Source: Owenia fusiformis
Lineage: Eukaryota; Annelida; Polychaeta; Sabellida; Oweniidae
NCBI GenBank assembly: GCA_903813345.2
Contig: CAIIXF020000002.1
Span: 20,288,455-20,352,454, forward strand
Length of the DNA: 64,000 bases
Direction of reading: 5' to 3'
Shown here one piece after another: positions 18,901 through 51,800 of the stretch; position 1 is the first letter of the stretch, and the number at the start of each line of letters is the position of its first letter. The notes beneath the pieces were generated by a model, which saw only the letters and a list, made by a program, of their open reading frames with translations, did no database searches and was not told the origin of the DNA. The translations under genes and the position numbers were made by a program.

Positions 18901-21900
18901 TATACTAACACTGGTTCTGTAGTCAACATAATTTTTGATTCTTGAAATGCATTTTCACATTGTTCATCCCAAACAAACTCGACATTTTTTCGCATAAGAT
19001 TGTTTAGTGGGGCTACTATGTTACTAAAACCCTTAACAAATCTGCGGTAAAAGTTACAAAGTCCCAAATATGCCCTTACCTCTGTGACATTTGTAGGTTG
19101 TGGGTATGATAGAATTGCCTTGATCTTTTCATTGTCTACTGTTATACCTTCTTTGGTGAAGACAAAACCCAAATAAACAACCTTTTCCAGTGCTAGTTTA
19201 CACTTTGAGGGTTTAAGCTTCAAATTTGCTTTTCTAAGTCTTGTGAATACCTGGTCTAAATGGTTTAAATGCTCTTTCATGTCTTTACTAAAAACAATTA
19301 TGTCATCACAGTAAACCAACACAAAGTCCCATGTAAGACCTTTCAAAACATCATTCATGACCCTCTGAAATGACATTGGTGCATTTTTGAGGCCAAAAGG
19401 CATTCTGTTGAACTGAAATTTGCCCTTGTGGGTTACAAATGCTGTTTTATGCTTTGAGGTTTCACTAAGAGGTAATTGCCAAAACCCACTATGCATGTCC
19501 AAAACTGAAAATATTGTTGCTTTTGAATGCGCTATGCAATCTATAATGTCATTTAATTGTGGAAGAGGGTAATGAATTGCTTCTGTGTTTTTATTGAGCC
19601 TTCTGTAGTCTATTGCTAACCTGTACTCATTTGACTTCTTTTTCACTAACACAACAGGGCTAGCATATTCTGACACAGAATGTTCAATTATGCCATATTC
19701 TAACATTTGGTCACATTGTTTGTCAATTTCATTTTTCTGTTCTTGAGAATACCTATAGAATCTTTGCTGGACTGGCTTATCTGATTTTGTTCTTATAACA
19801 TGCTCATATGTACTATTTGCACAGCCTAGCTCATTCATGTTTTGAGAAAAGACATCTTTATTTTTATCAATGAAAGTTATCAATTCTGCCTTTTCCCCTT
19901 CTGGTAATTTACATTTCTCTAGATTGATACCTGATGTTTGTACTTCACTACCAGTAGCTACATTATTTACACATGCTGTTAGTCTTGGTTCATTAGTAGT
20001 ATATGTACTATGTTTAATAGGATCTCCCCTTTGTAAAATGACAACTTTTTGTGTGAAGTCTATGAGTGCTTGACTTTGTGAGAAGAAGTCCTCACCTAAA
20101 ATTACATCATGATTTGCACTTTTGAGGATATGCATTGGTTGAACGTACTCAAATTCTTCAAATTTTAGAGGAACATTTGCCACACCCAGTACTTCTAGCT
20201 TGTGAGTTTCTCCCCCAGCCCCATATAACTCAATATTAGTTGGACTGATAGGACATTTCTTGTGCAAGTTCAATTTTTCATAGAGTGCTAATCTCATACA
20301 GGATTGTTCTGCACCAGTATCTACCAAGGCTTTGATATTATTGTCAACTATGTTTGTATGAATAATTATGTTTGAAACTGATCTTTGCAAATTAACCTTG
20401 ACTGATTGAACTGCAGGGATGGCCACCTTGCCACTATCACTTTTCACTTGTTTAAACTTTTGATTGTCAACTTTAGTTTCAAGGTGCCCATCCCTATGAG
20501 GAACAGGCGCGAGTCCTCATTTAGCAACGTTTCGACACCTATACGAATAATGCCCCCCGCGACCACACTGAAAGCACTGCTTAAACCTAGCATAACAATT
20601 TAATGAAAGGTGGTTTGACTTACCGCACCTCTCACACTGGTTTCTGCTTGATGAATTTTGCTGCATAAATTGTTGGTCATGTTGGGGATACCGTTTCTGT
20701 TGTTGCGTAAACTGTTGATTCCCAGGAAATTGGTTCTGTTGTTGAAACGGATTCTGCGGTTGATACTGCTTTTGCGGTTGGTACTGATTCTGCGGTTGAT
20801 ACTGGTTCTGCTGTCTTTGGGCACTTTGTTGCACTGGAAACTGGTTATTGTTGGCATAGCGTTGACCCATGGCATCGACTGTGACTGCAGCAACGGATAG
20901 CTTATCGACTTTATCCGTGAGAATTTTAATCGAGGCTGCTAACATCTCTGGCGCTGAATCTTGGGGCATGTTGCTATGAATCCTTGCGAACTTAACAGCT
21001 TGTTCTAAATTTTCAGGTTCTTTGAGCCTTACAAAGTTCTTTGTAGATGTATTCAATCCTTGGACAAAGAGTTCTTTAACATCCTCAGCATCCTTTTTTA
21101 GTCTACTGGTATAATACATGAGCTTGCTGTGAAATTCATCCACAGACATATCATTTTGTTTGAGAGTATCCAATTTATCCAACAACTCCCATCTTTCCGA
21201 TTGTTTGGGTGGGAACCTCTCTTTAAGTGCTTCCGTCAATTCCTCCCAGTCGTTCTTTGTATTTTCCTCTAATTGTTCAAAGTATTTTGCTGCTTCTCCT
21301 TTGACTAAAAGTGGGATTAAACTACATTTTCTTTGTTGGTTCCAGTTCTTTAAATTTGCGAATGTGTCAATAGTGTTTAACCAAATAATAACGTTTTCTT
21401 CTGATTTTCCATGGAATTTGTCCAATATTGATAAATCCATTGTTGTTAAACCTCAGGCAGCTCCACCAAAATATGACCGGGCTTTCTTTATATTAATTGT
21501 ACACAAAAGTGTGATGTTTTAATTTCTATCTTTTATTTATTTCACTTGTTTTCACTTCTAAGCTACCCACTAAATCTAGTTATGTCTTTTTGAAGTCTAG
21601 GCCGAAAGTGACCCAAATCTCTCACATGGCATATAGTATATTCTTCAAAACCAGACATCACATGATCACTTCAAATCTGTTATGTAAAAAGTTTAACAAT
21701 AGGAAGACTGCTTCAAATCCTAATTAGAATCCAAGATATAGAAATGTAAATTAAATGTAAATTAAAGAAACATTTGTAAGTCTGAAGATGCTCTGAACAA
21801 TTGTAATGATTGCATATTTAATGTGAGAAACTGACCAGAGATATCCCAGGTGTACTACATGACCTGTTGTTTATCTAAATGCTTTTTGTATCATGTTTCC

Positions 21901-33900: not shown

Positions 33901-36900
33901 TTTAGCCGAAAAAGGCCTTAAGGGCCCAAGAAGTGGGCCTTTTTGGTCATAAATGGGCCTTCTAAGGCCTTATTTTTTAATTTAAGGCCTAATTTTGAAA
34001 AAAATGGGCCTCAAAATTTCAAAATTTGGGCCCACTTTTTGGTTATAGGGGCCCAAACCTTTTTTCTCAGACCAGAAGTTCGGGCCCCCCCTTGTTGGTT
34101 CCCAGATCCGCCCCTGTGGTCACCAAATCCTGGCTACGCCACTGCATCTAAACAAAGCCCCTATTGGTGTGAACATCTCTGTTGCAAATAGTCTACTACA
34201 TTGACTCTCTAAAAGAGTCCATTGACAACTTGAACCATTATCAGAAACATATGCTTATCTGAACACTTTGGCCTGTCTTACTGACATTTGGATTGCACTG
34301 GTTTTTATGTGACCACTCCACAAGTAGTGACATATTGTTATAGTCTGCAACTTTTTTTTGTTGACTGTATTTGGTGGTTGGTGTCCAGTGGTTGGTGTTT
34401 GGTGGTCATCATTTAGTGTCTGTAACAAATGGCAGGTGGTGACATTTTGCATGTTATTGCAGATAATGCTACAGAATTAATTCAGTATCCCTCAATGTGT
34501 TCCTATATACTGTTGATGCATAGATTAGGCCATTCAAAGTTAATATGTTTAACTTCTTGATTATGTATTATGTCATAAGAAATATTGTAATGAAGTAAAC
34601 CTGTTTAAAAACTCCTCTTGTTGAGAGCTCAAATTTTAGGAGGGCGGGAGGTAAAAAAAATGTGAAAGATGGATTTATCTTTGAATGGTCTTATCAGCGG
34701 GTGGAGGATTTTGCTCTAAGAAGTGACTCAATTTATCCAGGTCAAGCTTTTACATTCTAGAACATTATGTTTCATATATGAAGCATGTTGGAAGCCACGG
34801 CATATTATATGGTGTTTGTGGAAATTATGATCCGCACATAGAAAATATACAGCTGTGACAAATATTTCATACTATTATACCGGTGTATCTTTCATAAGCA
34901 ATATTTCACACTCTGTAGACAGATTGCATAAAATTTTAGTTTTATTATTCAGTATTGATATTCTTCACTCTCTTAAGATCGTCACTCATGTTTTTAGCCT
35001 TTACCTTTATCTGACTGAATTTTACATTGATTATAAAGAACATATAAAAGTACATGTTAACTGGATGAAATACCAGCTGGGGCTTCTTATTTCCTAGACA
35101 CGTACAGGCCCGTAGCCAGGATTTGCCAAGGGGGGTTCACTTTTTGAAAAATTCCAAGGGGTTCATTTTTGACAATTTTGGGTCCAAAAATGGCCAAAAT
35201 CACTTAAAAAGTGCTCAGCATGGTGAAAAACTGCATGATTTTGAAAGAATTTTTGGCCAGGGGGGGGGAGTTCGCCCGAACCCATGGTATGGGCCTGATG
35301 TATAGGACCAATCAGAGTGTTACCTGATTTCAGAAATTCTTACCAGATGAGATTCTCAAAGAGCGACTCGACCAAGGTTCCCTTGAAGCCCTGGGCCTTA
35401 TTCAATCGCAACAGGCCTTCCAACAGAAATATGTCAAGACTAAAACAAAACTCTAGTAAGTATATGATGTTTTACTTCAAATATTGCCATCTACAACATA
35501 AATCTTGTCATCAATATTCAAGGAAGATTGACTCAGTTCAGTTGACTGTTCAAGCTGGGTTCCACTAGGCTTATTGAGAATTATACCCTATGTAAATATT
35601 AAATAAAATAACTAAAAATATTAGAGCATATTTCAGTCCCTCTATTTTCTCTAAGATGCACTACAATGCATGTAAAACCATGTAACTACCCTTGCCCACA
35701 TTCTTCCACAGTGTGAAAAATGTGGGGAAGTTAAGTAAAAATAAGATGAGAGTTACTTCATTTCCCCACATTGCTCCACAGTCACCCACATTTTTCCCTG
35801 AGGTAAAAGTGTGTAAAAACAAGAGTGCCATCTCCTGTTTTTACCTAATTTTCCATGCCACACATGGGAGGATTGAAGTAAAAATGTGTAGAACTAAGTG
35901 AGAACATGTACCCTTTTTCTCCACGCATGTAAAAAAATTGTTTTTTTCCTAAGGGTGATCTGTTTAACATTGTTACACCTGCAAGAATAGAGCCAACATT
36001 TCATTTCATTTGGGCATGCTGGGAAAATTACATGGTGGCCATTTTACTCGCCATATTTATCAATGTGTGTCTTGTTTTAAGATATAAGAATTGTATCTGT
36101 ATCACCCAATGCAGACAGATCGCCTAAAATTACATTCATATGATGCGAGACTCGACATTGAACGGGAAACTGGAAACATTTTGTCACCAATGTATCAAAT
36201 TATTTTTACTGCTTAATAAATGGTGAATGACAGTCACGTTAAGCTCTACAAGTATGGGAATAGCATGACACTCTGATATTTCAAGGTAACTCGTTTAAGA
36301 AAGGTGATTGAAATTACGATGTGAAGATAACACAACGAGATATTTCGCATGCTCAGCACCAAAAAGATGCATCTCTAAGTGGAATTTTGTATTCACATAC
36401 ATCCCTTTGGCGCTGAGCATATGATTTGTAGATTTCTTTGAAAAACTAAGAAATATAAATACATGTACAAATTTTTCAAAACAGAAAAAATATGCATAAA
36501 TAGTAAGGCCTGCAGGTCAAATTCCCCCTGGTAGCATTAACATTGGTCTTTATATTTGAAACTTATGATCGGACATAAGTATGATGTTACTTTTATTTAA
36601 TACCTTGAGAGACTCGACATTCAACATTCAACAGGAAACTAGAAACATTTTGTCACCCATATTGTAGCAAATTATTTTCCAGTTTCCCGTTGATTGTTGA
36701 GTCTCGCATCATACGAATGTAATTTTAGGTGATCTGTCTGCATGGGGTGTTTATGCTTTTCAGTTACAAGCAGTTGAAGTTCAATCTTCTCAGAGAGGAG
36801 AGTGATTAAGAATTGTATATGTATGCTTTTCAGCTACAAGCAGTTGAAGTTCAATCTTCTCAGAGAGGAGAGTGAATAAGAATTGTATCTGTATGCTTTT

Positions 36901-39900
36901 CAGTTACAAGCAGTTAAAGTTCAATCTTCTCAGAGAGGAGAGTGAATAAGAATTGTATTTGTATGCTTTTCAGTTACAAGCAGTTAAAGTTCAATCTTCT
37001 TAGAGAGGAGAGTGAATAAGAATTGTATCTGTATGCTTTTCAGTTACAAGCAGTTGAAGTTCAATCTTCTCAGAGAGGAGAGTGAAGGATACGCTAAGCT
37101 CGTCACTGAACTCAACCAAGACTTCAGCAACTGTCTTAGTGCAGATGCCCTACTCAAGAACATCAAAAGTTTAATAGGTAAGTAGAGTAAAAAAGCAGAG
37201 ATTAACATTTGTAGGCAAACCCCTGTAAATCATGAACAACCAAAGGAGGTAATATGAAATATATTCCTCCCAGAACAATATTCAGTGATATTCCCATCCA
37301 CATTTGACCAGGCACCGCACCCAGTTGAACACTTCAGACTGCCCTGTTGGTACCTTGGTGAAGCTTTGCATCCAGTTGAAAACATTGGTCTGCCTGAACG
37401 ATTTTTTCATAAAATTGCAAAAAATAAAGTTTTAACCTAAAATGCCAGCCTGTTTTGCTTGATAACGATATAAAATTCTCCCATGCAATTTAAGAAATGT
37501 CTGAACTTATATTCTTTGCACTAAAAAGTCTTCAATCTGCATTGTTTCTAACAGTCTGATTAGCAGAGAAACTATAGGCATTTTTTTGTCTAAAGCAGCT
37601 TATGCCTGGGTCACATTTGCTCTGATCCATCGGCCAGCGCCTGGCCGATTGAGTGTTTTTTCAATATTGTATTCAATTTTGAACAATTACTCAATCGGCC
37701 AGGCGCCATAGTGAAAATCGGAGCAAATGTGACCAAGGCATTGGCCTTACTTTAAAACAGGTACTAATTACACGAATAAAAAATCAATGACAGAGCATTT
37801 TCCCAGGAATTTACTTTGTTGATAAATCAGTTGAATTGAAGGCACAGGTGTAACAATTTGTATACAAGTAGAACCTGCTTACAAAGAATGCTGTCCGGAC
37901 TGGCCAAGATTGTTTCTTGTAGACAGGTGTTCTCTACAGAAAGGCTCCATGTTTTGGGCAAACCAATTTGCTGAATATGCATTTAATTATTGTAGACGAT
38001 GAGTTACTGATGTTATAGCAGAGCAACGTTGCTACTGTTAGTCAACTCAATTTGGTGATCAATTTAATTTGGCGAATTGCAAAAATTCAATTTACCAATT
38101 CATGTCTTTGCCAATTTTTCAGAAATTCTCATGAGATTTTCGTCGGAAAAATCTTGTATCGTGGTTCAAATGCTCAAGATCTTATTTATTCAATAAATTG
38201 TACCATTTAGATGAAAAAAATTCTGAATACTCATGAATACCATAAAACTGTCCTTATGAAGATTCCGTTGCAGGGCTCAAGCTGAAGCGTCGAATTTTAC
38301 CAGGAGTACAGTAGCGTAAATTGCTAATTTTTTACTTTTCAATGCAAAACAAAAACATGTAAAGTGCATTGAGTTATTCTATTTGAATAATTTGATGAGT
38401 ATGTTGGAGTTATTCAAGGTAGGTTGAGCCGAGAACACTTGAAAACATTGCTACCGGAAGTGAAAGTTTGTAACTTTCCAAAGAAATTTTTTTGGAACTT
38501 TTTTCCAAAATCATTCATTTAATCGCGAATAAATCGAGTGTTCAAGAGCCTCTACTCGAGTAGGATAATTCACACGAGTCCCACCACTACAGGAAGATCA
38601 TCCGTGTCACTCTGACTTGGAATAACAAAATATCAGGTCATAATATAATAATTAAATTGTGAATAATATGAGGATGTATTATGTAAAGTTTACAAAGAAA
38701 TGGCATTCCTGCAAATTGTCACCAACAGCCATTTGTAACAAATGCCGAACACCAACTGCTGAATACCAAACACCAATCATCAGTGGAGACTGTACAGAGT
38801 ACTGAAAATTATAGATACTCAAATTCTAAATACCTATCCAGGAATATTAGCATCTTATTTTCAATGATGTTATTAAATCAAAAAACATTATGGACAATAG
38901 TTTAACTGTATCAGTGTTTAACAATCATATACATAATAGTCAGTTTACTGTTTTTTACTGAACTGTTTAGTTGTCCTGTTGAAATATTCATTTTTTTCCC
39001 CACGAGGGAATCCTTTAACAATATTACCATTAGTGAAGCCATATAGTTCTTTAGCGCTGTTACGTAGACGAGCTGCATATTCACCAAAATTACTCCGGCT
39101 TATTATTAAAACATCGCAGTGGCTTAGAATATTGAAATCTAATGCGACCTTCTGCATGCCTTGACATGCTTGATTTTGATTGGACCTATCGGTGTGGGTA
39201 ATCACCCCCTCTGTGTCTGCAATAGTAGTTGGGAATAATCGTTTGGCACTTTGGCGTATATTCTCTGAATCCGTGGTTACAAATATTTTGTATTTGATAG
39301 AGTTGTTGTACTGCGCTAAAAAGTCCCAGATTATTGGAAGAAACTCTGGTTTGTTTCGGGTGGGGTCATTTGGAATTGTCGGGTTCTTTCCAATGCGAAT
39401 TTGCGCACATACAAGAGACTTGTTTTTTGTACTATGGAGAAAGTCTTCCAGCTTCTTTTGGAGTTCTTGTTGAGGTTTAAATAGTAAATTGTGTAGTTTT
39501 GGAAATATGTAATCCATGCTCAGATTTGAGGGATTAAATCCTAATTCAATCAGTCTGTCCTTATAGAGTGCATTTTTAAATGCTTTTATCCAATCTATGT
39601 TATTTCTAAATATAATCACATCATTAGAGTATCGTTTCTCGATATGTGTGTTTGGTGTTCCTATCTCTTTCGGACTAAACTGTTCATTGTCGATTAGGTA
39701 ACGCTGAGTTTGAGTCAGTCCCTTCGGCAAATTAATTGACCAGTTGACATGATTCGATACGTAAACTTTGGTCAGAGCGCATGGGTGATGATGCTGGATT
39801 ACAAACTTCCTCTTTGTCACTAAGGACCACATAAATGTGCTTGTTATACCTGTCATTCTGTCACCCCAGCCACCACACATCCCGGGACATAGATAAACAA

Positions 39901-42900
39901 TATATTTAGCCTCAGAATTTTCCTGAATATGCTTCACTTCATCACGTGCTAAAGATATGTTGATGTTTACTGGAAAATAATGATTATTTTTAGAATTTTC
40001 TGTTGTATCCTTTCTCTCTGCACCAACTTGAGAATTACCAAGTTTGTCATTGCTGTTTTTAAGTACGATGTTTCCAACTTGAGTTTGTTTGTTAGATAAA
40101 TATTCAGTTTTGTTTCTCAAAAGCTCCATATTTTTTTCTATCCAATATTTGTATTGAACTAAGCCTACATTCCAATAGTTTGATAACAGTATACTGAGAA
40201 ATATCAGTGAACATGAACATACAATTAAAAGTATGAACACTTTTTTGCCTGATTGCTCCATCACTCGAACCAATAACAGTATACGTGTGTGCTTTCCCTA
40301 CATGTATTTATGCGACTACTGAGCTATAAAATTGAATACAGCAAAATACACATTAATTGCTACATAGTAGAAGTTTCTGATCTGGTTTTAAGTGACAGTT
40401 TTACACTGTAAATAAATCAATAAAAGAGTAAATTAGACCCAATTCTTTACAAGTCTAGTTTGTATAATATTCCATTCATGAAATTAAGTGTATACACTCC
40501 CCTCCATAAGTTTGGCAACCTTAGCTCCACCATTGAACTATGTGTTAAGGCCTCTTTACGTTTGAATTTTTATTTACTTAACCGGCGATGAAATAACTTA
40601 TAATATTAATGGAATCGTAACTTGACTTTATTTCCAATACCTCCAAATTTTCTCAATTTTTTTCCTCAATTACAATAGGTCGAAAATGATGATAAATTTG
40701 ATGAATTTTTGAAAACCGTCATTCCCATGTAATCCAATGGGAAATGGAGGGTTCGGGGCAAATCAGAAATCAGGATATCTTTTCAGTAAAAGATTCAGCA
40801 AAAAATATTTTTATATAGAAAATTGAATTGTCTAACTTTTCTGTACACTGAGTGTTTAGTTTATTTGATGAATACTAAAGTTACAGCGCTTCAAAGTCAT
40901 TTTTGAAAATAATTTTTCGCCTCCTGTGTTTTTTCAATGGGAGAGGTTTTTTGAAAAACAATTTTGACTTTAAAGCCCTATAACTTTGTTGAAGCTGAAG
41001 AAACATATCAATTTTTGTTAAATAAAGTTAGCAAATTCAGTTGCCTACCTAACTCATATTTTTTGCATGGACTCGGATGGATGGATATACTGTCACATGA
41101 CTTGCGGCAAACGTACCATTTCCCATTGGTTAACATGGGAATGTTGATTTTCAAAAATTTATCATCATTTTCGACCTATTGTAATTGAGGAAAAAAATTG
41201 AGAAAATTTGGAGGTATTGGAAATAAAGTCAAATTACGTTTCCATCAATAGTATAAAAAAATTCATCGCAGGTTAAGTAAATAAAAATTCAAAGGTAAAG
41301 AGGCTTTAACACGTAGTTCAATGGGGGATCTAAGGTTGCCAAACTTATGGAGGGGAGTGTACCTCCCCCATTTCAAAGGAATCACTCAAGTTCAACATTA
41401 GGTTATAGCGTCTCAGGCTAATGCACACGTTGACTTATCTCATGACTTATCATGTGTAAATACATTTATAACTTAAAACTTAAGCTTAATTAAAAATAAG
41501 TTTTCTTGAGCATCCAGTTGAATAAGTATATGTGCAACATTTCAAATTGATTTCTAATCATTACTTTAAAGAATGTGTACAAATGAAGTTAGATTAGCTA
41601 GTTTTTTTTAGTTTATTTTTATGTCAACACCCTCTCCATTTATTTGTGATGGCCCGTGGCGGTTGGCGATTGGCGTCTGTAAGAAATGCTTAGTTGACGT
41701 CTGTAACAAACAACTTCCAATAACTTAATAAATACTGCTCAGACTGACTTCATTTTTTTCAAAATCACCCACGAGATTTCAGAAGTTCAAATCTAATTAT
41801 AGATTTTTAGATTTGACCTTCTCAAGGTAAAAAAAGATTAGACCTTCAATGACTCTGTATGATAGAATAATGTACCTACAGAAAGGCATTTTTGTTTTGC
41901 TTTTTAAATGAAACAAGTTTGAAGAAAAACAGTGCATGCAGTATGAGACCCAAAATCCTTGATTTTCAAACATCAAGTTGGTCTAAAATGACTGTTTTCA
42001 ATGTACATAGTTGGACCCCTGTGTTTATCATTCACAGCTGAGTGATCTTACCCTGTATGTAAAGATGGTCACAGGTTTTTTACTTCATATATATTTTAAC
42101 TGAAATCAGTGATCCAATTGAGTGAACAGCTCTGTATCTATATATTGAATTTTCACTGTTATATTCAATTTCTAAAGAATTTAGTTAATTAGTGGACTCC
42201 CCATGTGGAAATTTGTCAACCAATGTAAAACTATCCCATTGGTTAGATGCTAGACTCTGTATACAAAAATGACATTTTGGCATATGAGAACATTTAATTT
42301 TATTTCATTTTCATGATAAATATCAATAATTTTGAATGAATTTAAATGTTGCACCCAAATTCAAAAAAATGTCCCAATTGATGTCGCCATATTATCTCGG
42401 AAAATATTAGTGGTGTATCTTTAATTTCTGTATATATTTCATCAATAACCTCAAGGCCATATGTGAACATTCATTTTTGAATGAGAATTTCATTAATGTA
42501 TTTTTTACCACTGGGCTCTAAAGTGTCAAAATGAATCATTCGCTACTGTCGCCGTTTTGTATTTTGATTTTCAAGTCATGTTTACAGGTATTTATTATCA
42601 CATTTTGTTCAATGTCCAAACTTTACTTCGCCACCGCATGTTTCTAAGAGAAAGTGATTAACAAAACCCATCTTGAACGATATATTATTTTGTACAGCCT
42701 TTCAAAGGGGTGCCGCCAGTTTCAGAAAATTCAGAAAAATCATTGTTACTTGATTCATTCATTCCAATTATATGAGTCTGGAATTGAGATAAGAAATGAA
42801 GAAAATGTAATTTTGAAAGATTGTTTATGTTTTCAATAGAGGACATGTGTCAAGTCCGAGGTGTGTCTGCATTTTTTCACATTTTTTTGAAGAAACAAGC

Positions 42901-45900: not shown

Positions 45901-48900
45901 ATCAATTTTCAACTAAGGTGTATAGGTGATTAGCTTGAAAATGTTAGAATTGTATGTAATCGAATGCAAAATAAACGCCCAGTGGGCGTTTTTAGAGAAA
46001 CAAAGTTAGATAAATACTCTGCTATTCTAGACAGCGTTATGTGGATGGGCTGAGGAAAAGTTCCAGTTTAGGCTTTGGTCATATGTACATTAAAGATTTG
46101 TTTGATTTATAATTAAAACCAAATCTTTACTTGTCAAGCTCATAGTTCTTCTAATCATTCTAAATTTGCCTCTATTTTCAATAATCTTTCTCATCTTCAT
46201 CATTTCATCTTCATGGTGTTCTATAAGATGATTTATAATGTTTTGAAATTTAACAGTTCGTAGTGAAGGACAATAGAAACATGTAAATCCAACCACTCTG
46301 AAATGCAAAGAACATATCATTAGAATCCACAAGGTAAAATCACTCACTTGGCTGATCATATTTTTTTTTTATAACATCCTCTTATTCGATACTGAAGGGG
46401 AGTTGGAACGTCTGATATGCATGTAATGTTAAGTTTTATGTATATTAACCATAGATGATATTGGTTTTGTGGTTTTGGCAATCTAAAAACAGGAAATTTT
46501 GTGAAAAATACATTTTCGTTCGACGGGTTTTTGATTTTGCTTCTTTTATCAACTCAGTTCAGGTATTTCGGTTGATTTAATCACTGAATCCTGTTACCAA
46601 ATGAATCTTGAGTCTCTTATACAGCATATGGAATACCATCTGTAGGTAAAATGACTTTAAACTGGTAAAGAGAAGACAAACAAACATACCTTTCCTCCGA
46701 CATTTTGGATTTTGCGCATCTTGTCGAGTCTTTGATCACCCACTTTTAATACTAGGCGATCTCTGTACATACAGTGATATTGTAACTCTAAAGAAACACA
46801 CGATCAGATCATTGAATTTCAAGTCGTAGACAGGAAGTTTGCTTTCTTTATGCAGGTCAACCTGATAACGTTGCTAGGGTCACTTGAAATTGTATTGAAT
46901 GGGAATTGCTTTAATAACACAGCTACACACGCAACAACATATTTTGCTTCTATTCTGTACCTGAATTTCTTATGAATTATTCATTTTTGACAAAGTGTAT
47001 TTGAATGTCATGAAAATTTGAAAATGTGTTTGAATTATGAAATATCTAATTTTAAAAGTTATAAATACATACAGTTTTACTTGAATATTTATATGTACAT
47101 GCATACTCTACAACATACAGTGTTCTCCACAGGATATTTTCTCAAGTTGGCGCAAAATTCTCATTTTCACAATTCAGACCAAAATTGGTCAAAATATGCC
47201 CATTTGATTTTTCTCATTTTCAAGTGGGTGCAAATGGATTTTCAGGTGGGTGCAAGCCTATTTTTAAAGTCCCAGCTGGGTGCTGCACTCACTTGCTTTA
47301 ATACTTGGGGAGATCACTAACATGTATTTTATTCTCATATACCATCAGCTCAATGGCATTGTCCTATAAATCATCACCACTCTTTATATCATTTCTCATT
47401 TTCTCCTTAACCTGCTCTAGTTTCATGAGTTTGTGATATAAACTATTCCAGTAAAAATTGCCACCTTTTGGTACATCAAAGAAGCTATGATGTATTGGCT
47501 AAATTGATGATGTCATTGGTTGTACTTTTTATGTCATCACCAAAAATTGGGGACATATTAATGGTCTCCGTTTTTTGTGACGTCGTTTTGGGATTGGCAG
47601 TTGGCGTCTGTAACAAATTGTTGACTTTTTGCATGTTAATGCCTTGTTCATTAATCCTGTTTTTGCTTGGACGGATGATTTACATTTTCATAAAGTCACG
47701 ATTTGATATCATCCCAAAAAACTATCAATTGGCAGTATTATTTCCTAAACCTACAAAACAGTCTAATCAGAATGGTATTCGGACTGGTCAAAGGTGTTTG
47801 AATTTGCAGGTGTTCACATTTCAAAGGCTTTTCGTATGGAACTCTCTGGTAGATTAAAAAATGGACTGGAAAAGAGTTTGCATTGGGAGATCAATGGTGT
47901 AGCGTCATATATGCATAAAACGCCATGGCGTACTCTCAAAATTTAAATAACAGTTGATTTTTTTATATTGATTTGCTCCACTTACTCTTAAAAAATGTAT
48001 AAAATGCCCAATAATTTACATTTTATTAGTTCATTTTCGGATTTCAAAATGCCCAAGAATGCTTCAAATGCAATCTCATTCTTGGGGGAGGACCCCCTCA
48101 AATCCTACTCAAAGCACGTTCATTTCACTCATGGCATACACTCACAAAATACCCACGCTACGCCACTGGGAGATGTTCGTAAAATAAAGATGTGTTCAAT
48201 ACACAGGTTTAATACTGTACATTTGATTGCTGTTGTATAATAACCAATTACATTATTTTTGATTTTAGGTGTTCACATTTCAAACTTTTTCAACATCGAA
48301 GTCTCTAGCAGATTAAAAGATGGACTGAAAAAGAGTTTGCATTAGGAATTGTTCAGATTAAAGATACGTTCAATGTTCAAGTTTTACTGTCCATTTAATT
48401 GCTGTCTTATAACTTTACAGGATGCTTTAATTTGGACCCTAACCGTGTGCTAGACATCGTCTTGGATACGCTGGAATGTCGACCAGACCAAGCGGAGTTC
48501 TTCGTCATGTTCTTAAAGGGTTATATGAAGAAGCAGGATACAGTATGCCACATGTTGGGCTTTAAGTTCCACTTTTATCAAGTAAGACCTTAATGTGATA
48601 TATCTACATAATGAATATTTTTCACAAATATTATAATGTTACAGTTTTTCATAAAAATATTATTAATAAGTTTTTCATAAAAATATTATTAATAAGTTTT
48701 TCATAAAAATATTATTAATAACATCGAAATTGAAATTTCATGTCAATAAAGAAGTAAAAACACCTGCCTGAGATGAATTACACTGGAAGAAATGCCAGTT
48801 TTGGAATATGCTATATATTTCATTTGATGATTGGCTGCTTGGGAATATACCTCTCATCAGTCCCCCCTTTTCATGACATTTTACACTTGATTGGGAAATA

Positions 48901-51630
48901 TTATAAGTTTATATTTGACTCAAGTTTAGTATATGACCAATCAGATAGTGGGGATTATGACAAATGATGTAATGATGAAATTTTCTGCAGTATAGACAGA
49001 TATAGGTATAGTTTTGGAGGTAATACTTTCTCTTAATACCCTACTCTCCTATTCCCTTACACAGAGGATCAAAACGTTTCCTAGTTTTAAGTAAAAAACA
49101 AAGTAGGTGACACCAAGTTTTTGTTTGATTATGAAGCATATTATTATGTCATGGTTATTTTAATATAAAAATATACACTCTATGGTAAAATAACTGTTAG
49201 GCCTCTGATTACTCAACCACCTTAAAAGAGTTGTGTTTTAATCATTAACTTACAAGAGTAATAAAATGTGAAAAATGTGCTTAAATCCACATCTTGAAAA
49301 CAATATTACAGTGATCTCCCCACCTTTAAAGCAAGTGGGTGTAGCATCTGAGATTTCAAAAACAGGCCTGAAAATCCATTTGCATCCACTTGAAAAGAGA
49401 AAAAACATGAAAAATTTGGATATTTCGACCAATTTAGGGTCTAAATTGTGAAAATGAGAATTTCGCACCCACTTGAGAAAACATCCTGTGGAGAACACTG
49501 TGATGCATGACATTAACGAGAAAATTTATGTTAGAAATGAAGTTGAAACTATAAAAGTCCTTGTTTAAACTATAAAAGTCATTGTTTTAAAGCTTTGTAT
49601 TACAACTATACACATAGCCTATACAAGTCCTATTAAACACACCTGTTACTGAAGGCCACTGAATATTTTAATCCAGAAAAACATTTAATCAGGTCTTCAT
49701 AACTTCAACTTAAGACCTATTTGCCGTGCGAAACATGGTTTAATATTTTGATGAATATGTTGAAATATAACAAGGTTTGAGTTTGCTTGGACTCAATGTT
49801 TCCACGACTCTTCTTTTAGAAGTATTTGGCCTTTTACAATTTTTTATTTTTGAAAAGCCTCTTTTGTATGATTTTACCGCTTTTTTTTATTTTAATTATC
49901 AACTAATTAAATATAAAGCCCATTGTTTCCCCTTGGTTTACGTGGGAATGACAATTTTCAAAAATTCATCAAATTTAGAAGAAAAAAAAATGGGAAAATT
50001 TGTGGCATTGGAAATGAAGTCAAGTTACATTCATCAATAATATAAGTATTTTCCTCGCAGGTTATGTTCTTTGTTGCAATGCATTAACATTTAAAAGAAA
50101 TGTTTAATGTAAGAGCCTTCAGAGCACAGTGGATAATATTATATTGTTATTTATATTTGGTCTTTTTGGAATTTCAGACTATGTTTCATTCCATTAATAC
50201 AATACTATTTGTCATCTGTCAATGTGCGCCATGATTAAATAAATATTACACTCTTTAAAAGTATTTGCTATTTAACATACTATAGTATTCAGTAAGAACT
50301 GTAAGTTTATAGGGCCATTATGAACTTCTCTATAACAGAATGAAATAGCAAATAAAAATCTTTTGATTTGGAATCTTTTCAAAAATCAGCTAAAAGAGTG
50401 TGAATTGCATGTTTCAGAATTCGACATATCTGTGAATGAAATCGAAAGAATGAATATTATGGATGACAAATACAAAAAATGCTTTTATGTGAGGTACACC
50501 GATGAAGGGGGAGATTTGTGGATAACATAAAAAATCGAACCCCTGGTCACCAATTGCTGGCAAGTCATATTAAATACACCTGTTACTGAAGGCCACTGAA
50601 TATTTTAATCCAGAAAAACATTTAATCAGGTCTTCTAAGTTGATTCAAAATGCTACACACTGTGCTGCACTATTTAAAACATTTTAAATGAGTGATTTGC
50701 CATGATTGCTTTATTCATGATGTTTGCACCCTATGTAGATGAATTGCATAACATTACATTCTCATGATGTGAGACTAGACATTAAGCAGGAAACTGGAAA
50801 CATTTAATGACCCATGTATCAAATTATTTTTTACTGCTTAAATGGTGAATGACAGACACATTTAGTTCTAGAAGTATGGGAATAGATACAAAAGACAGAG
50901 ATAGGGTTGAATAGAACAATGTTCACCCCAGGATTTTATCTCAAGCGTGAGCAAAATTCTTATTTTCATAATTTAGACCAATGATCAAAATATGCCTATT
51001 TTTCATGATTTTTCTAATTTTTGAAGTGGGTGCAAATGGAATCTCAGGTGGGTGCATGCCTATTATTAGAATCTCAAGTGGGTGCAGCACTCACTTGTCC
51101 TAATGGTGGGAAGATCACTGTAAAGTTTAAAAAAAAGTAAACTCACTATTATATTACTCTAAAAATAACGCAATTCATACTGAATTGGTTCTGATGCCAT
51201 TCAAACAGTTTTAGGGTGGAAAAGGATTCACTTATAAAATTTCAAACACTTTTACATTTTTGTTCATACACAATGCTGCCATGCATAAATCATAGATCTA
51301 TCAAAATAATCTGGTTTTCTTATATCATCAATAGAGGTCAGGATTTGTTGGATGGCGTTGCATTCAACAATTTTAGTTAGAAAAATATCTATGATTCATG
51401 ATGCAAAATATGACCAATGACCAATTTCTGTTCATTGTTAAAAGACTGAAATCACATCTGAATGTAAAGGAAGGGAGAAACTCTAATTAATAAACGTTTA
51501 TGTATACAAGTACAGTATTAAACTTTCTTTGCAGGAATCATCAGAGCTAGAAACTCCTGTCTCGCTTTATAAGATGGCAGCACTGTTGTTGAAGCACAAC
51601 CTCATACAGTTAGAGAGCCTCTACCCACAT
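12864..51630 (+). CDS. THOC2: THO complex subunit 2, N-terminal 284 residues in eight exons (gene continues beyond)
   Basis: Eight exons with consistent phases join into 852 coding bases that align along their whole length with the N-terminus of animal THOC2: [121 protein letters not shown]2 is the scaffold of the THO/TREX complex, which couples transcription to mRNA export in the nucleus. Human THOC2 has about 1,590 residues, so over 80% is missing; no later exon was found up to 64000. Introns reach 10 kb and are full of transposons. Two antisense genes lie inside or just after it. Exons 6 and 8 have tandemly duplicated edges. Confidence 0.9.
13115..14135. repeat. Left part of a nested inverted-repeat element split by the LTR retrotransposon
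   Basis: 13115-13219 and 13655-13760 are inverted copies. 13440-13555 carries inverted gactcccagaatgcaacat ends. 13580-13660 recurs inverted at 22500-22590. 13780-14035 recurs directly at 22030-22285. 13980-14135 forms a large hairpin centred near 14052 (agtccatttcact). Together these show a composite, repeatedly inverted repeat that existed before the retrotransposon entered. Short ORFs here are not convincing genes. Confidence 0.7.
14136..14644 (-). repeat. 3' LTR (minus-strand sense)
   Basis: 509 bp; on the minus strand it starts TGTGACGG and ends GGTCA. By eye identical to 21474-21982. It contains AATAAA on the minus strand near 14197-14204, about 60 bp before its end, a likely polyadenylation signal. 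Confidence 0.9.
14645..16667 (-). other. Two-kilobase non-coding stretch between pol and the 3' LTR
   Basis: After the pol stop at 16668 no minus-strand ORF over 60 codons was found until the LTR, so there is no envelope-like gene. The stretch has short repeats (aagtgaaa/aagcaagtgaaat on the minus strand, 15950-16010 and 16375-16440) and a duplicated gatgtcatcgtccaa segment near 14785. Its role is unknown; it may be an unusually long 3' UTR. Confidence 0.7.
14649..14658 (-). other. Candidate polypurine tract
   Basis: GGAGGAGAAG on the minus strand, four bases before the 3' LTR, is where plus-strand DNA synthesis would be primed. Confidence 0.6.
16668..20516 (-). CDS. pol: Chromovirus Pol polyprotein (protease, RT, RNase H, integrase, chromodomain)
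   Basis: Open for about 1,282 codons directly after the gag TGA at 20517-20519 and in the same frame. The first in-frame start-like codon, GTG at 20447, is not convincing, so Pol is probably made as a Gag-Pol readthrough product. Counting from 20447: aspartic protease DTGA at 43-46; RT with [11 protein letters not shown] and the YCDD active site at 379-382; RNase H at about 524-640; integrase zinc finger H814/H821/C851/C854 and DDE residues D882, D941, E977; a GPY/F-like module (HGPYYIV); chromodomain at about 1199-1243 ([17 protein letters not shown]). It makes and integrates the DNA copy of the element. No frameshift or internal stop was seen. Confidence 0.93.
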   Translation of the reverse strand, partial: GLAPVPHRDGHLETKVDNQKFKQVKSDSGKVAIPAVQSVKVNLQRSVSNIIIHTNIVDNNIKALVDTGAEQSCMRLALYEKLNLHKKCPISPTNIELYGAGGETHKLEVLGVANVPLKFEEFEYVQPMHILKSANHDVILGEDFFSQSQALIDFTQKVVILQRGDPIKHSTYTTNEPRLTACVNNVATGSEVQTSGINLEKCKLPEGEKAELITFIDKNKDVFSQNMNELGCANSTYEHVIRTKSDKPVQQRFYRYSQEQKNEIDKQCDQMLEYGIIEHSVSEYASPVVLVKKKSNEYRLAIDYRRLNKNTEAIHYPLPQLNDIIDCIAHSKATIFSVLDMHSGFWQLPLSETSKHKTAFVTHKGKFQFNRMPFGLKNAPMSFQRVMNDVLKGLTWDFVLVYCDDIIVFSKDMKEHLNHLDQVFTRLRKANLKLKPSKCKLALEKVVYLGFVFTKEGITVDNEKIKAILSYPQPTNVTEVRAYLGLCNFYRRFVKGFSNIVAPLNNLMRKNVEFVWDEQCENAFQESKIMLTTEPVLVYPDLQKPFIISCDASGTAIGYILGQIDEQGRERAVSYGGRSLSTGERKWSITERECLALIEAINEYHIYIANAHFIVYTDHISLKYLQSIKDHTGRLGRWSIKLQAYDFTIEFRCGKSNSNADALSRRPYEVNECKQMCQQTTTIQTEDSGITQDSCTDEWVAYSIPSPTTMQTGNIGSEGQNVKCPISESKQQTGMCSDLSALSSICEITQSSNEVFQNKQRQDPQLQMYIKYLEQDELPDKENLARKVILESQDFLIKDGILYHMYYPRGKGHKSDRVVIQLAIPQQLREDVLQCYHDSLMGGHQGQDRTYNTIRYKYYWPKMYSDIEKYVKSCEICQQSKRYHGQRAPLQPLPTGSLFSRVHMDILGPIHKVNGFQYILLIVDSFSKWPEAVALKSIEATEVARVLFTEFICRYGSMKTLITDRGQNFMSKVIQELCRMFGIEHRATSSYHPETNSSCERMNSTINQAFRCFVDKQQSNWPQLLPGILASYRFSPATESTGYSPYYLLYGKEPLMPLDTMVPVSMGQSTVTDRLQDIQTNLEVARDIAKENQEAAKIKTKTQHDKKAKLPQFKVGDRVWLHVPKTPTGLTPKHCRKYHGPYYIVRANANMTYKLIRCSDDRLLRSLVHANRLKPYVDPETRPTNIPRVQQGQVLQDDNHIDQGSSSISDSSSESDQQPPQVQEVERLLACGKHNGKKCYKVKWRNEKKSTWEYEENIPRNLIREYHITKTNTGKVRKRKTR
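20517..21440 (-). CDS. gag: Chromovirus Gag with two CCHC zinc knuckles
   Basis: 307 residues from an ATG only 33 bases after the 5' LTR. Residues about 1-160 match the retrotransposon Gag capsid type ([38 protein letters not shown]). A Gln-rich linker of QYQPQN repeats follows. Two CX2CX4HX4C knuckles ([28 protein letters not shown]) bind RNA. It forms the particle that packages the element RNA. The frame ends NVAK-TGA and is followed in frame by Pol. Confidence 0.92.
   Translation of the reverse strand: MDLSILDKFHGKSEENVIIWLNTIDTFANLKNWNQQRKCSLIPLLVKGEAAKYFEQLEENTKNDWEELTEALKERFPPKQSERWELLDKLDTLKQNDMSVDEFHSKLMYYTSRLKKDAEDVKELFVQGLNTSTKNFVRLKEPENLEQAVKFARIHSNMPQDSAPEMLAASIKILTDKVDKLSVAAVTVDAMGQRYANNNQFPVQQSAQRQQNQYQPQNQYQPQKQYQPQNPFQQQNQFPGNQQFTQQQKRYPQHDQQFMQQNSSSRNQCERCGKSNHLSLNCYARFKQCFQCGRGGHYSYRCRNVAK
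21451..21468 (-). other. Candidate primer binding site
   Basis: On the minus strand TGGTGGAGCTGCC starts five bases after the 5' LTR. A leading TGG would pair with a tRNA CCA end. I could not identify the tRNA. The whole 5' leader before gag is only 33 bases. Confidence 0.45.
21474..21982 (-). repeat. 5' LTR (minus-strand sense)
   Basis: 509 bp, same length as and apparently identical to the copy at 14136-14644; followed on the plus strand by the target duplication AATATA. Confidence 0.9.
21983..22690. repeat. Right part of the inverted-repeat element split by the retrotransposon
   Basis: 22030-22285 repeats 13780-14035 in direct orientation. 22500-22590 repeats 13580-13660 inverted. The GGCTCCCAGAATGCAACATG motif near 22620 matches, inverted, the one at 13530-13555. 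Joining the left flank (ending 14135) to 21989 restores exactly the inverse of sequence found at 13965-14000 and 22205-22245. Confidence 0.7.
23219..23369 (+). CDS. THOC2: THOC2 exon 2
   Basis: Acceptor catttcag, donor gtaagt, 50 codons. [19 protein letters not shown] is the conserved YELS-HVIKGNLK-type block. Confidence 0.9.
23370..24333 (+). other. THOC2 intron 2
   Basis: It starts with a GTGAACACC-rich piece (23395-23475) of a dispersed family also seen near 31395, 47785, 48270 and 57745. Beyond that a loose duplication (cccac-tttgaaacagaaaag) lies near 23700 and 23825. No gene was recognised. Confidence 0.5.
24334..24385 (+). CDS. THOC2: THOC2 exon 3
   Basis: Acceptor ctactttcag, donor gtacgg, 17 codons then phase 1. 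[17 protein letters not shown] leads into the next exon (DIET). Confidence 0.85.
24386..26884. other. First part of THOC2 intron 3, no recognised gene
   Basis: A minus-strand ATG-initiated frame at 24527-24856 (109 codons, [20 protein letters not shown]) is complex in composition but unrecognised; it could be an exon or chance. A short tandem repeat, ctatttagtgagtgcag, ~18 bp, four copies, lies at 25497-25558. The rest is AT-rich single-copy-looking sequence. Confidence 0.35.
26885..28960. repeat. GATC-rich minisatellite (ATGCAGTTGATCATGTGG units)
   Basis: Degenerate repeats of about 21-22 bp combine into ~43-44-bp higher units: caatatgcattgcaccaatt + gacatcatgcagttgatcat in the left half, and atgcagttatcatttgataac + atgcagttgatcttgtgg further right. 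Blocks run 26885-27898 and 28657-28960, split by the hAT-type insertion 27899-28656. The array evidently existed before that insertion. Confidence 0.85.
27899..28656. mobile_element. hAT-type non-autonomous element, 8-bp target duplication GTTGCATG
   Basis: Ends TAGGGCCGTGCC and GGCACAGCCCTA are inverted repeats. GTTGCATG flanks both sides (27891-27898 and 28657-28664), the 8-bp signature of hAT. Subterminal regions are rich in TTCCG/CGGAA. The interior contains promoter-like motifs (CGCATGCGCA at 28354-28363, CCGGAAGTGA at 28379-28388) and a strong donor-like AG|GTAAGT at 28482-28483. On the minus strand an ATG at 28545 opens [17 protein letters not shown]. No transposase. Confidence 0.85.
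28961..31303. other. Rest of THOC2 intron 3
   Basis: It contains a degraded copy of the CAGTGATCTCC...GTGGGTGCA family (29510-29680, minus orientation) and the CRE/E-box cluster 29972-30163. C/G-runs occur near 31080-31155 with an inverted gctacaagcc/ggcttgtagc pair. No gene was recognised. Confidence 0.45.
29972..30163. promoter_or_regulatory. Cluster of CRE and CACGTG motifs inside an inverted pair
   Basis: CCCCCACGTGAT at 29974 and ATCACGTGGGGG at 30140 are inverted copies. Between and next to them are a full TGACGTCA (30090) and ACGTCA half-sites at 29991, 30040 and 30158; one is joined to CGGCAACC. Density is far above chance for AT-rich sequence. It may be an enhancer or the motif-rich body of an old transposon. 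Confidence 0.4.
31304..31374 (+). CDS. THOC2: THOC2 exon 4
   Basis: Acceptor tatgttgcag, donor gtaaga. It encodes [15 protein letters not shown] then LALVHACQ, parallel to the DIETN...KRDYF region of vertebrate THOC2. Confidence 0.85.
31375..32475. other. First part of THOC2 intron 4, transposon debris
   Basis: 31395-31560 is a copy of the AGTGTTCACATTGAGAGGTGTTC-type family. 31676-31735 carries a GGGGGTTC/GAACCCCC inverted pair like the family at 35105-35297. 31805-31835 is one terminus of the TTTGGCAACCTTAG family (complete copy at 40495-41358). No gene. Confidence 0.5.
32476..32854. mobile_element. CAGGT...ACCTG MITE with TA target duplication
   Basis: Termini CAGGTTGACCC and GGGGGCACCTG are flanked by TA at 32474-32475 and 32855-32856. 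Similar in style to the element at 5099-5400. Non-coding. Confidence 0.6.
32857..33835. other. THOC2 intron 4, middle
   Basis: AT-rich; includes decayed pieces resembling the internal part of the 40495 element (33480-33560) and, at 33740-33835, a segment shared with 50460-50560 (ggagatttgtggataa). No gene seen. Confidence 0.4.
33836..34119. mobile_element. GGGCC-rich MITE copy
   Basis: Left cactggcagatctgggg and right cccagatccgcccctgtg are inverted; the interior GGGCC/AAAATTTT pattern is as in 12476-12749. Confidence 0.65.
34120..35104. other. THOC2 intron 4, distal part
   Basis: 34330-34450 is a copy of the TTGGTGTCTGTAACAAATGGCAGGTGGTG family (others near 38700 inverted, 41660, 47580, 61260). 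Otherwise unremarkable; no gene. Confidence 0.4.
35105..35297. mobile_element. Short MITE with CAGGCCCGTAGCC-type ends
   Basis: CAGGCCCGTAGCCAGG at the left and CCATGGTATGGGCCTG at the right are imperfect inverted repeats. Internal GGGGGTTC/GTTCGCCC pieces fit the same family as 31676-31735; a fragment sits at the window end (63945-64000). Confidence 0.55.
35334..35455 (+). CDS. THOC2: THOC2 exon 5
   Basis: Acceptor ctgatttcag, donor gtaagt, 40 codons and two bases. [17 protein letters not shown] and KTKTKL are strongly conserved THOC2 segments. Confidence 0.9.
35456..36102. other. THOC2 intron 5, proximal part
   Basis: It contains a cluster of CCACA-TT and GTGTGTAAAA motifs (35690-35930) with loose internal repetition. 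Its last bases (ataagaattgtatctgtat) equal the start of the 70-bp unit repeated at 36751-37085. No gene. Confidence 0.5.
36103..36749. mobile_element. MITE with ~70-bp inverted repeats inserted just before the exon 6 acceptor array
   Basis: CACCCAATGCAGACAGATC at the left and the inverse of CACCCCATGCAGACAGATC at the right match over about 70 bp with few differences. The left flank ends gtatctgtat and the right flank resumes tatgcttttcag; the unbroken gtatctgtatgcttttcag occurs in the following tandem copies, exposing the insertion point and a probable TAT duplication. Confidence 0.75.
36751..37085 (+). repeat. Five-copy 70-bp array of the THOC2 exon 6 3' splice site
   Basis: Acceptor CAGs lie at 36761, 36831, 36901, 36971 and 37041, exactly 70 bp apart. 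Each copy carries tgcttttcag plus the first 41 bases of the exon. Copies 1-4 continue GAGAGTGA(A/T)TAAG, an in-frame stop if spliced to exon 5; copy 5 continues GAGAGTGAAGGA into the true exon. Differences between copies are few (ctacaag in copy 2, ttaaag in copies 3 and 4, cttaga in copy 4). Confidence 0.95.
37044..37177 (+). CDS. THOC2: THOC2 exon 6 (last of five tandem acceptors)
   Basis: Only the fifth copy of the repeated cag|TTACAAGCAG acceptor continues into an open frame ([14 protein letters not shown]...[10 protein letters not shown]). Donor is gtaagt. The four upstream copies run into TAA. Confidence 0.9.
37178..38944. other. THOC2 intron 6, before the nested glycosyltransferase gene
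   Basis: It contains the hairpin MITE 37603-37740, a TACAAGTAGAACCTGCTTACA-type fragment near 37866-37960, and at 38700-38790 an inverted copy of the TTGGTGTCTGTAACAAAT family. No gene. Confidence 0.45.
37603..37740. mobile_element. 138-bp hairpin MITE
   Basis: tgcctgggtcacatttgctc and gagcaaatgtgaccaaggca are inverted ends; CGGCCAGGCGCC/GGCCAGCGCCTGGCCG lie in the arms. It resembles in style the GGCC-AGTCACAT element at 59799-60459. Confidence 0.7.
38945..40273 (-). CDS. Type II membrane glycosyltransferase, fucosyltransferase-like, intronless
   Basis: 442 residues; ATG at 40273 with an alternative ATG four codons later. A short cytosolic tail, one transmembrane segment (residues about 11-30, [19 protein letters not shown]) and a ~100-residue stem precede the catalytic region, the layout of Golgi type II enzymes. 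[16 protein letters not shown] (134-149) resembles the GxGNR loop of GT-B fucosyltransferases of the GT37/GT11/GT23 group; QIRIGKNP (291-298), VTTDSE (332-337) and [19 protein letters not shown] (386-404) fit the donor-binding half. Several N-glycosylation sequons occur. It would add a sugar, probably fucose, to secreted glycans; the exact reaction is not assignable. It lies antisense in THOC2 intron 6. Being intronless, it may derive from a retrocopy. No disabling mutation seen. Confidence 0.8.
   Translation of the reverse strand: MVRVMEQSGKKVFILLIVCSCSLIFLSILLSNYWNVGLVQYKYWIEKNMELLRNKTEYLSNKQTQVGNIVLKNSNDKLGNSQVGAERKDTTENSKNNHYFPVNINISLARDEVKHIQENSEAKYIVYLCPGMCGGWGDRMTGITSTFMWSLVTKRKFVIQHHHPCALTKVYVSNHVNWSINLPKGLTQTQRYLIDNEQFSPKEIGTPNTHIEKRYSNDVIIFRNNIDWIKAFKNALYKDRLIELGFNPSNLSMDYIFPKLHNLLFKPQQELQKKLEDFLHSTKNKSLVCAQIRIGKNPTIPNDPTRNKPEFLPIIWDFLAQYNNSIKYKIFVTTDSENIRQSAKRLFPTTIADTEGVITHTDRSNQNQACQGMQKVALDFNILSHCDVLIISRSNFGEYAARLRNSAKELYGFTNGNIVKGFPRGEKNEYFNRTTKQFSKKQ
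40495..41358. mobile_element. Inverted-repeat element CACTCCCCTCCATAAG, TA target
   Basis: Both ends read TACACTCCCCTCCATAAG inward followed by TTTGGCAACCTTAG, and the arms match inverted for over 200 bp (also AATTTTCTCAATTTTTTTCC). TA at both borders suggests Tc1/mariner mobilisation. Decayed relatives lie at 31805 and 49780-50060. The ORF at 40964-41188 is not a transposase. Confidence 0.8.
41361..44611. other. THOC2 intron 6, middle part
   Basis: 41640-41720 is a TTGGCGTCTGTAACAAA fragment. 41890-41985 is a fragment of the 8236-9152 foldback family (aagtttgaagaaaaac). A short inverted aacgatgaattca pair lies near 43405-43435. No gene was recognised, though 44160-44450 is less AT-rich. Confidence 0.4.
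45590..45869. mobile_element. 280-bp MITE with 8-bp target duplication CTCTATAG
   Basis: Ends TTAGTTCAACAAGTTAAACC and GGTTTAACTTGTTGAACTA are inverted. CTCTATAG stands on both sides (45582-45589 and 45870-45877). An 8-bp duplication suggests hAT. A second internal GGGTTTAACTT pair is present. It inserted into the 2.16-kb element. Confidence 0.8.
46090..46703 (-). CDS. Candidate two-exon small C2H2-like protein carried by the 2.16-kb element
   Basis: Exon 1 is 46690-46703 (ATG TCG GAG GAA AG, donor gtatgt), starting just inside the right terminal repeat. Exon 2 is 46090-46297 (acceptor tttgcatttcag). Spliced, they give 73 residues: [14 protein letters not shown], then HLIEHHED and a basic tail. 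C-x2-C followed by H-x4-H or H-x3-H spacing suggests one zinc finger. It could be the N-terminal end of a deleted transposase, such as a DNA-binding domain, or a small regulator. Splicing is predicted, not shown; the gene lacks any catalytic domain. Confidence 0.4.
46782..48420. other. THOC2 intron 6, distal part
   Basis: It contains the MITE 47118-47319, a GGCGTCTGTAACAAATTG fragment at 47575-47645 and two GGTGTTCACATTTCAAA-type pieces (47785-47880 and 48265-48370). The ORF at 47468-47857 overlaps these repeats and shows no domain. Confidence 0.45.
47118..47319. mobile_element. MITE of the CAGTGNTCTCC family (copy 1)
   Basis: Ends CAGTGTTCTCCACAGG and TTGGGGAGATCACTA are inverted. The interior carries GTGGGTGCAAATGGATTTTC and TGGTCAAAATATGCC, shared by copies at 49309, 50917 and 62160. 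Confidence 0.7.
48421..48581 (+). CDS. THOC2: THOC2 exon 7
   Basis: Acceptor ctttacag, donor gtaaga, 53 full codons. [20 protein letters not shown] is nearly invariant in THOC2. Confidence 0.9.
48644..48721 (+). repeat. Three-copy 26-bp tandem repeat
   Basis: gtttttcataaaaatattat repeated at 48644, 48670 and 48696, starting about 60 bp after the exon 7 donor. Copies look identical. Confidence 0.85.
49309..49500. mobile_element. MITE of the CAGTGNTCTCC family (copy 2)
   Basis: CAGTGATCTCCCCACC to CCTGTGGAGAACACTG; inverted orientation relative to copy 1. Confidence 0.7.
50917..51120. mobile_element. MITE of the CAGTGNTCTCC family (copy 3)
   Basis: Left end decayed (caatgttcaccccagg); right end GGGAAGATCACTG; interior GTGGGTGCAAATGGA and GTGGGTGCAGCACTCA as in copy 1. 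Confidence 0.6.
51535..51630 (+). CDS. THOC2: THOC2 exon 8
   Basis: Acceptor ctttgcag, donor gtaagt, 32 codons. [20 protein letters not shown] matches the LYRVAAVLL region. Its last 15 bases and donor are repeated downstream. Confidence 0.85.
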
Positions 51631-51800
51631 GTAAGTAGAGTTTACAAAATATGCATATTCATTAGACAGCCTCTACCCACATAGAAGTAGAGTTAACAAA
51701 ATACACTCATTCATTAGACAGCCTCTACCCACATGTAAGTAGAGTTAACAAAACACACACATTCATTAGACAACTCCTTCCCAAATATATGTAGAGTTAC
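51616..51800 (+). repeat. 52-bp array of the THOC2 exon 8 5' splice site
   Basis: agcctctacccacat (end of exon 8) plus gtaagtagag and 27 intron bases repeat at 51616, 51668 and 51720, with a decayed fourth start at 51772. Copy 2 has the donor mutated to atagaagt; copy 3 keeps gtaagt. Using the copy-3 donor extends the exon into an in-frame TAG (CCC ACA TAG). Confidence 0.92.

Follow-up and report, generated by a model that had tools for sequence, protein, structure and literature searches.

Minisatellite-like duplications that cross the 5′ or 3′ boundary between an intron and an exon are known from amphioxus, where they are called 'mirages' and are described in the genes for Adh3, the globins BflGb6 and BflGb9, troponin C and PGBD5 (PMC3087553, PMC3902484). 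As described there, their units are about 10–160 bp long and carry the AG or GT of the boundary in many, not all, copies. No interference with regular splicing is reported for Adh3 and globin (PMC3087553), and the same is reported for Adh and troponin C (PMC3902484). Here we describe an array of five tandem acceptors at exon 6 of the THOC2 gene in the annelid Owenia fusiformis, found in a 64,000-nt stretch of its genome, G000:C2:20288455-20352454 (the window), and compare it with other exon boundaries in the 498-Mb assembly, which was searched genome-wide. The exon 6 array fits the amphioxus description, in that a tandem unit spans a boundary on the acceptor or donor side. In a literature search that took in mostly titles and the starts of abstracts, with most subscription journals uncovered, we recognized no report of boundary-spanning arrays outside cephalochordates and, at that depth, no earlier one from an annelid.

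The array occupies positions 36752–37086 and has a period of 70, 4.8 copies, 96% matches and no indels (Tandem Repeats Finder, score 621). In each unit, the end of intron 5 is joined to 41 bases from the start of THOC2 exon 6: every copy holds TATGCTTTTCAG and then these 41 bases, after which copies 1–4 run into an intronic spacer that starts (A/T)TAAGAATTG and copy 5 runs into the remaining exon. The copies lie on the forward strand at 36752–36821, 36822–36891, 36892–36961, 36962–37031 and, for the partial fifth unit, 37032–37086; their first exonic bases are 36764, 36834, 36904, 36974 and 37044. A first-pass annotation, made from the letters, had described five nearly identical acceptors at an exact 70-bp period, and both the repeat finder and a check of the coordinates agree with it. 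Full units 1–4 differ from one another at 2–4 of 70 bases and from copy 5 at 1–2 of the 55 bases in common, and copy 5, the edge unit, is no further diverged than the other copies. With an exact period and 96% identity, the array is not a chance arrangement. A 361-base query, run across the genome by a method that scores best candidates only, hit this one place only.

Splicing to the first four copies would end the protein early. Exon 5 (35334–35455, forward strand; exon numbers are those of the first-pass annotation) ends in ..AAACTCTA|GTAAGT at 35455, with the donor CTA/GTAAGT. Joined to any of copies 1–4, it continues for 15 codons, the last encoding D or E, and then meets an in-frame TAA that is supplied by the intronic spacer inside the unit; copy 5 alone stays open, and translation from exon 5 thus reproduces the reading first proposed. 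Exon 6 proper (37044–37177, forward strand, donor GT at 37178) is 134 nt long, compared with 204–414 nt if it began at copies 1–4, and is flanked by introns of 1,308–1,588 nt (depending on the acceptor) and 11,243 nt. Under a scoring matrix built from 24 other acceptors of THOC2, copies 1–5 reach 9.7, 9.1, 7.8, 9.9 and 7.8, and the real acceptors range from −2.8 to 14.0 when each is left out in turn. All five therefore score like genuine acceptors, as had been claimed, and, because the scores are alike, copy 5 is not picked out by the strength of its sequence.

Other known systems share parts of this arrangement. Poison exons and unproductive splicing likewise involve decoy acceptors that lead to premature stops; at exon 6 it is the unit's intronic spacer that supplies the stop, and the decoys are known from sequence alone. 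NAGNAG acceptors also compete in tandem, with AGs within a few nucleotides of each other, whereas the exon 6 sites stand 70 nt apart and have their own pyrimidine tracts; for splice sites at least 20 nt apart, the choice is assigned to first recognition (PMC9225289). Intron gain by tandem genomic duplication copies a segment with splice signals too, but here the unit spans an existing boundary. In human duplicated genes, the expansion of internal minisatellites similarly changes exon–intron structure, in a study one section of which counts repeats by exon, intron and frame and leaves boundary copies outside its subject (PMC2812944). Earthworm metallothionein genes contain intronic minisatellites and exon-4 duplications that are absent from the transcript (PMC12783039), a case near to, and perhaps not the same as, that of the exon 6 array. 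Amphioxus remains the closest match. The differences are that Owenia is an annelid, that arrays affect 5 of 51 boundaries in THOC2 and 4 of 80 among the sampled kinase exons, and that evidence on splicing comes from amphioxus only.

The identification of the gene as THOC2, and the frame assigned to it in the first-pass annotation, are well founded. Exon 6 matches two solved chains of THO complex subunit 2 (E values of 2e-13 and 4e-13), and the N-terminal exons, once joined, give a match to PF16134 (THOC2_N; 4e-54). By tblastn with a human THOC2 query we placed 27 exon pieces, the first coding exon lying outside them. The pieces span 23.2 kb to 222.9 kb, about 200 kb, of the window and the next 200 kb (L002–L021).

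Self-comparison of the 27 pieces uncovered four further boundary-spanning arrays in THOC2. At exon 8 (51535–51630, forward strand, donor CAT/GTAAGT), a donor array of 52 bp × 3.7 lies at 51610–51799 on the same strand; GT is kept in one of its three decoys, and read-through of the donor hits a stop in the second unit. A second donor array, at about 183529 (L013:9529), has a period of about 51 bp and ten copies that could be found. The third, at the donor at 205215 (L016:1215; array L016:1170–1847), advances mostly in 60-bp steps over some twelve copies found, with GT in 11/11 decoys found and one frame open for 236 codons, or about ten units, so that its decoy donors would add 20-residue repeats and not stops. 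The fourth surrounds the acceptor at 210803 (L016:6803), with four copies of 132–142 bp. Weak self-matches (66–67% identity) near the exon at 182829–183021 were not counted as a boundary array, nor were arrays at 206154 and 221884, which are confined to introns. Also in the window, on the reverse strand at 56871–57510, a rhodopsin-family G-protein-coupled receptor (GPCR) gene (PF00001) carries a tandem acceptor array of 160 bp × 4, the three upstream copies of which run into TAA when read in frame with the last.

How often would such arrays be met by chance? Arrays with a period of at least 25 cover 12.2% of 264 kb, or 9.1% without an 8.3-kb satellite, and some array across some splice site is therefore to be expected. 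Coverage is 9.2% in five 10-kb stretches on other contigs (4.7, 3.4, 38.1, 0 and 0% singly). In THOC2, arrays enclose 5 of 51 boundaries (2/26 acceptors and 3/25 donors; GT follows the placed donor end directly in 21 of the 25, and is one base off in four). Circular shifts give a mean of 4.0–6.2 spanned boundaries over four settings, and the probability of at least five is 0.37–0.60; an enrichment of arrays at the 51 THOC2 boundaries is thus unsupported against this null.

THOC2 was chosen for holding the finding, and a sample of protein-kinase exons is therefore fairer than the pooled figure of 9/131 boundaries. Of 144 protein-kinase matches we used the first 40, in order, whose open frame did not exceed 154 codons, leaving out five (three in a local C3 cluster, one inverted C5 neighbour and one with five stops), and read each with 450 bases on either side, the ends of the match standing in for the ends of the exon. 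Arrays cross 4 of the 80 match ends, in 3 of the 40 exons (exact 95% interval, 1.4–12.3%). Coverage in the kinase flanks is 4.0%, from which about three crossings would be expected. One exon (L033) has both an acceptor array of 86 bp × 3.8 and a donor array of 71 bp × 2; its three decoys resemble one another closely and diverge by 13% from the productive copy. The others have a donor array of 54 bp × 4 that is open in frame (L042) and an acceptor array of 51 bp × 5 (L054). All four crossing arrays have plausible splice signals as read by eye, in exons identified solely as PF00069 matches, and in four more exons (L043, L051, L052 and L059) arrays occur in the flanks only. In THOC2 and the kinase exons together, arrays thus span both 5′ and 3′ boundaries in this genome. 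Separately, the match tables, of which that for helicases lists 85 matches, contain fragments of a kinase domain (G000:C10:2256896-2257205) and of a helicase domain (G000:C4:29162068-29162455) repeated on one strand about 180 bp apart; they are known from these tables only, and the kinase pair falls in L066, which has no called array. They are perhaps older duplications of a boundary or an exon.

If decoy sites were harmful, a clear deficit of intact ones would be expected, and a clear excess if they were used. We compared 43 copies of 10 arrays in gapless alignments of at least 60% identity (copies below this, among them the first in the array at 210803, were excluded), computing the expected number of intact sites from the divergence of each copy elsewhere. 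The decoy AG is intact in 16/16 copies (13.9 expected) and the decoy GT in 22/27 (20.3 expected), or 38/43 combined against 34.3 (P = 0.08 upward and 0.97 downward, with copies that are not independent). There is no deficit, and so no purging of decoy splice dinucleotides, in these 43 copies. Nor is a poisonous outcome the rule, as some donor arrays, including the 60-bp array of THOC2 and the 54-bp array of the kinase exon L042, are open in frame.

We consider it likely that the exon 6 array is a mirage in the amphioxus sense, a minisatellite lying by chance across an intron–exon boundary, one of several in this genome, and tolerated as clutter, not a special switch. Its origin would be a tandem duplication of a segment comprising the 29 nt ahead of the acceptor cut and the first 41 nt of exon 6, followed by growth to five copies that recent expansion, or exchange between copies, may have kept alike. 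That the last acceptor, or in donor arrays the first donor, is the one joined to the body of the exon is always so by geometry and is no evidence in itself. Part of this history may be read from an inserted element. A 647-bp terminal-inverted-repeat element (36103–36749; 74-bp arms at 36103–36176 and 36676–36749, 92% complementary) sits inside the intronic portion of copy 1 and ends 2 bases before the array, and direct-repeat comparison shows that its left flank keeps the array's own 19-nt spacer, ATAAGAATTGTATCTGTAT (36084–36102, forward strand), 89–100% identical to the intronic spacers of the repeat. Because this remnant stands to the left of the element, at least one duplication would most simply predate the insertion, the element then landing in copy 1. 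A related, partial terminal-inverted-repeat piece is present at 50727–51017, also in a THOC2 intron.

As the worm needs a working THOC2, the acceptor of copy 5 is presumably the one mostly used, by exon definition with the donor at 37178. Long introns flank exon 6 and copy 5 gives the shortest exon, which would favour it; among human splice sites with long flanking introns, those closest across the exon are described as favoured (PMC9225289). Copies 1–4 would then be intronic passengers, any leak to which would run 15 codons to a stop, presumably followed by decay of the transcript. We expect mostly use of copy 5, with some leak to the others. Several observations pull the other way. The stronger productive acceptor that we sought at exon 6 is not there, copy 5 not being the strongest of the five. 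For human 3′ sites flanked by two long introns, the preference for the upstream site is described as reduced, and a reversal is not reported in the part of the account that bears on it (PMC9225289), which makes a leak to copies 1–4 plausible. No THOC2 protein named as from Owenia is present among the best 120 of 1280 and the best 120 of 236 matches, in two length ranges. The slight excess of intact decoys leans weakly toward use. Finally, where the exon 6 copies differ in complete codons, all three differences are synonymous, a weak signal (0.05 if transitions were random).

The leak could also be costly, with a sizeable and constant share of THOC2 transcripts running to copies 1–4, a stop and decay, so that output is lowered and unregulated. 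In the leave-one-out comparison the four decoys score higher than 16 to 19 of the 24 real THOC2 acceptors; each leads to a stop, and all stand on the upstream side, which is favoured on average for human 3′ splice sites (PMC9225289). A high cost sits poorly, however, with decoy sites that are unpurged in 10 arrays, with boundary-spanning arrays that are not depleted in THOC2 relative to random placement, and with amphioxus cases that are reported to splice normally (PMC3087553, PMC3902484), and we regard this reading as unlikely, although worth keeping in view. The first-pass annotation had offered tolerated noise, a truncated isoform or a nonsense-mediated-decay switch on the level of THOC2; the first of these is best supported, since like arrays occur elsewhere at about a random rate. 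A selected decay switch or autoregulatory loop acting through poison acceptors draws on the premature stop in every exon 6 decoy and on the slight excess of intact decoys over all arrays (P = 0.08), and feedback is conceivable given the role of THOC2 in mRNA biogenesis. Yet four other THOC2 boundaries, the GPCR gene and kinase exons carry arrays from which that of exon 6 is indistinct, and others are open in frame; a switch particular to THOC2 is not borne out, and we judge a selected switch or loop of this kind very improbable. A brief look in the literature for THOC2 together with decay and autoregulation listed one review.

It is hardly credible that the array is an artefact of assembly and that the true copy number is one. 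Tandem arrays are a classic source of assembly trouble and a single haploid assembly was examined, but the copies differ by 2–4 of 70 bases, like arrays are found at other places, and the 335-bp array is short beside PacBio reads with an N50 of about 26–31 kb, which are described as coming from the sperm of one male and as polished with Illumina reads (PMC9977687). A further possibility is compatible with the interpretation as tolerated clutter: decoy copies may be the raw material of new exons or introns, an intermediate in their gain. Routes to introns through tandem duplication have been proposed (PMC3087553, PMC2891723), and the likeliest example here is the 60-bp THOC2 donor array that stays in frame (L016:1170–1847), with its 236 open codons and its GT in every decoy found. 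The exon 6 decoys, in contrast, carry stops, and we hold the chance of such gain to be small.

Several other features accompany the gene. Exon 7 lies at 48421–48581 on the forward strand. An 8.3-kb satellite with a 63-bp period (L008:2844 to L009:1184) occupies part of the 119-kb intron 8. Further on, a whole THOC2 exon with its flanks is duplicated (L014:9171 and L015:94), the two copies being 923 bp apart and 100% identical over 278 compared bases. On the reverse strand of intron 6 is a single-frame fucosyltransferase-like gene (38945–40297; PF03254 just above the cut-off), the protein relatives of which include sequences from Owenia, octopus and Lingula. Upstream of the first THOC2 exon piece placed, long open frames of 1282 and 311 codons at 16671–21452, also on the reverse strand, are ones that we take to be retroelement-like, going by motifs only.

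Such arrays could conceivably have a more active role, each serving as a heritable copy-number dial in which extra decoys divert transcript to decay or add an in-frame repeat, and so set the output of THOC2 and many other genes. We think this improbable; were it true, it would amount to genome-wide control of splicing by minisatellites in a protostome, with natural experiments in splice-site competition. What the kinase sample suggests is that this annelid carries boundary arrays at several per cent of its splice sites. That frequency, if true, would extend an amphioxus curiosity to protostomes, and exon placement by gene predictors may go wrong in genomes of this kind. Tandem splice sites that are nearly equal put spliceosomal choice to a natural test, as sequence is near constant and position varies, and if arrays are that frequent, the proximity rule of exon definition becomes testable with existing RNA-seq.

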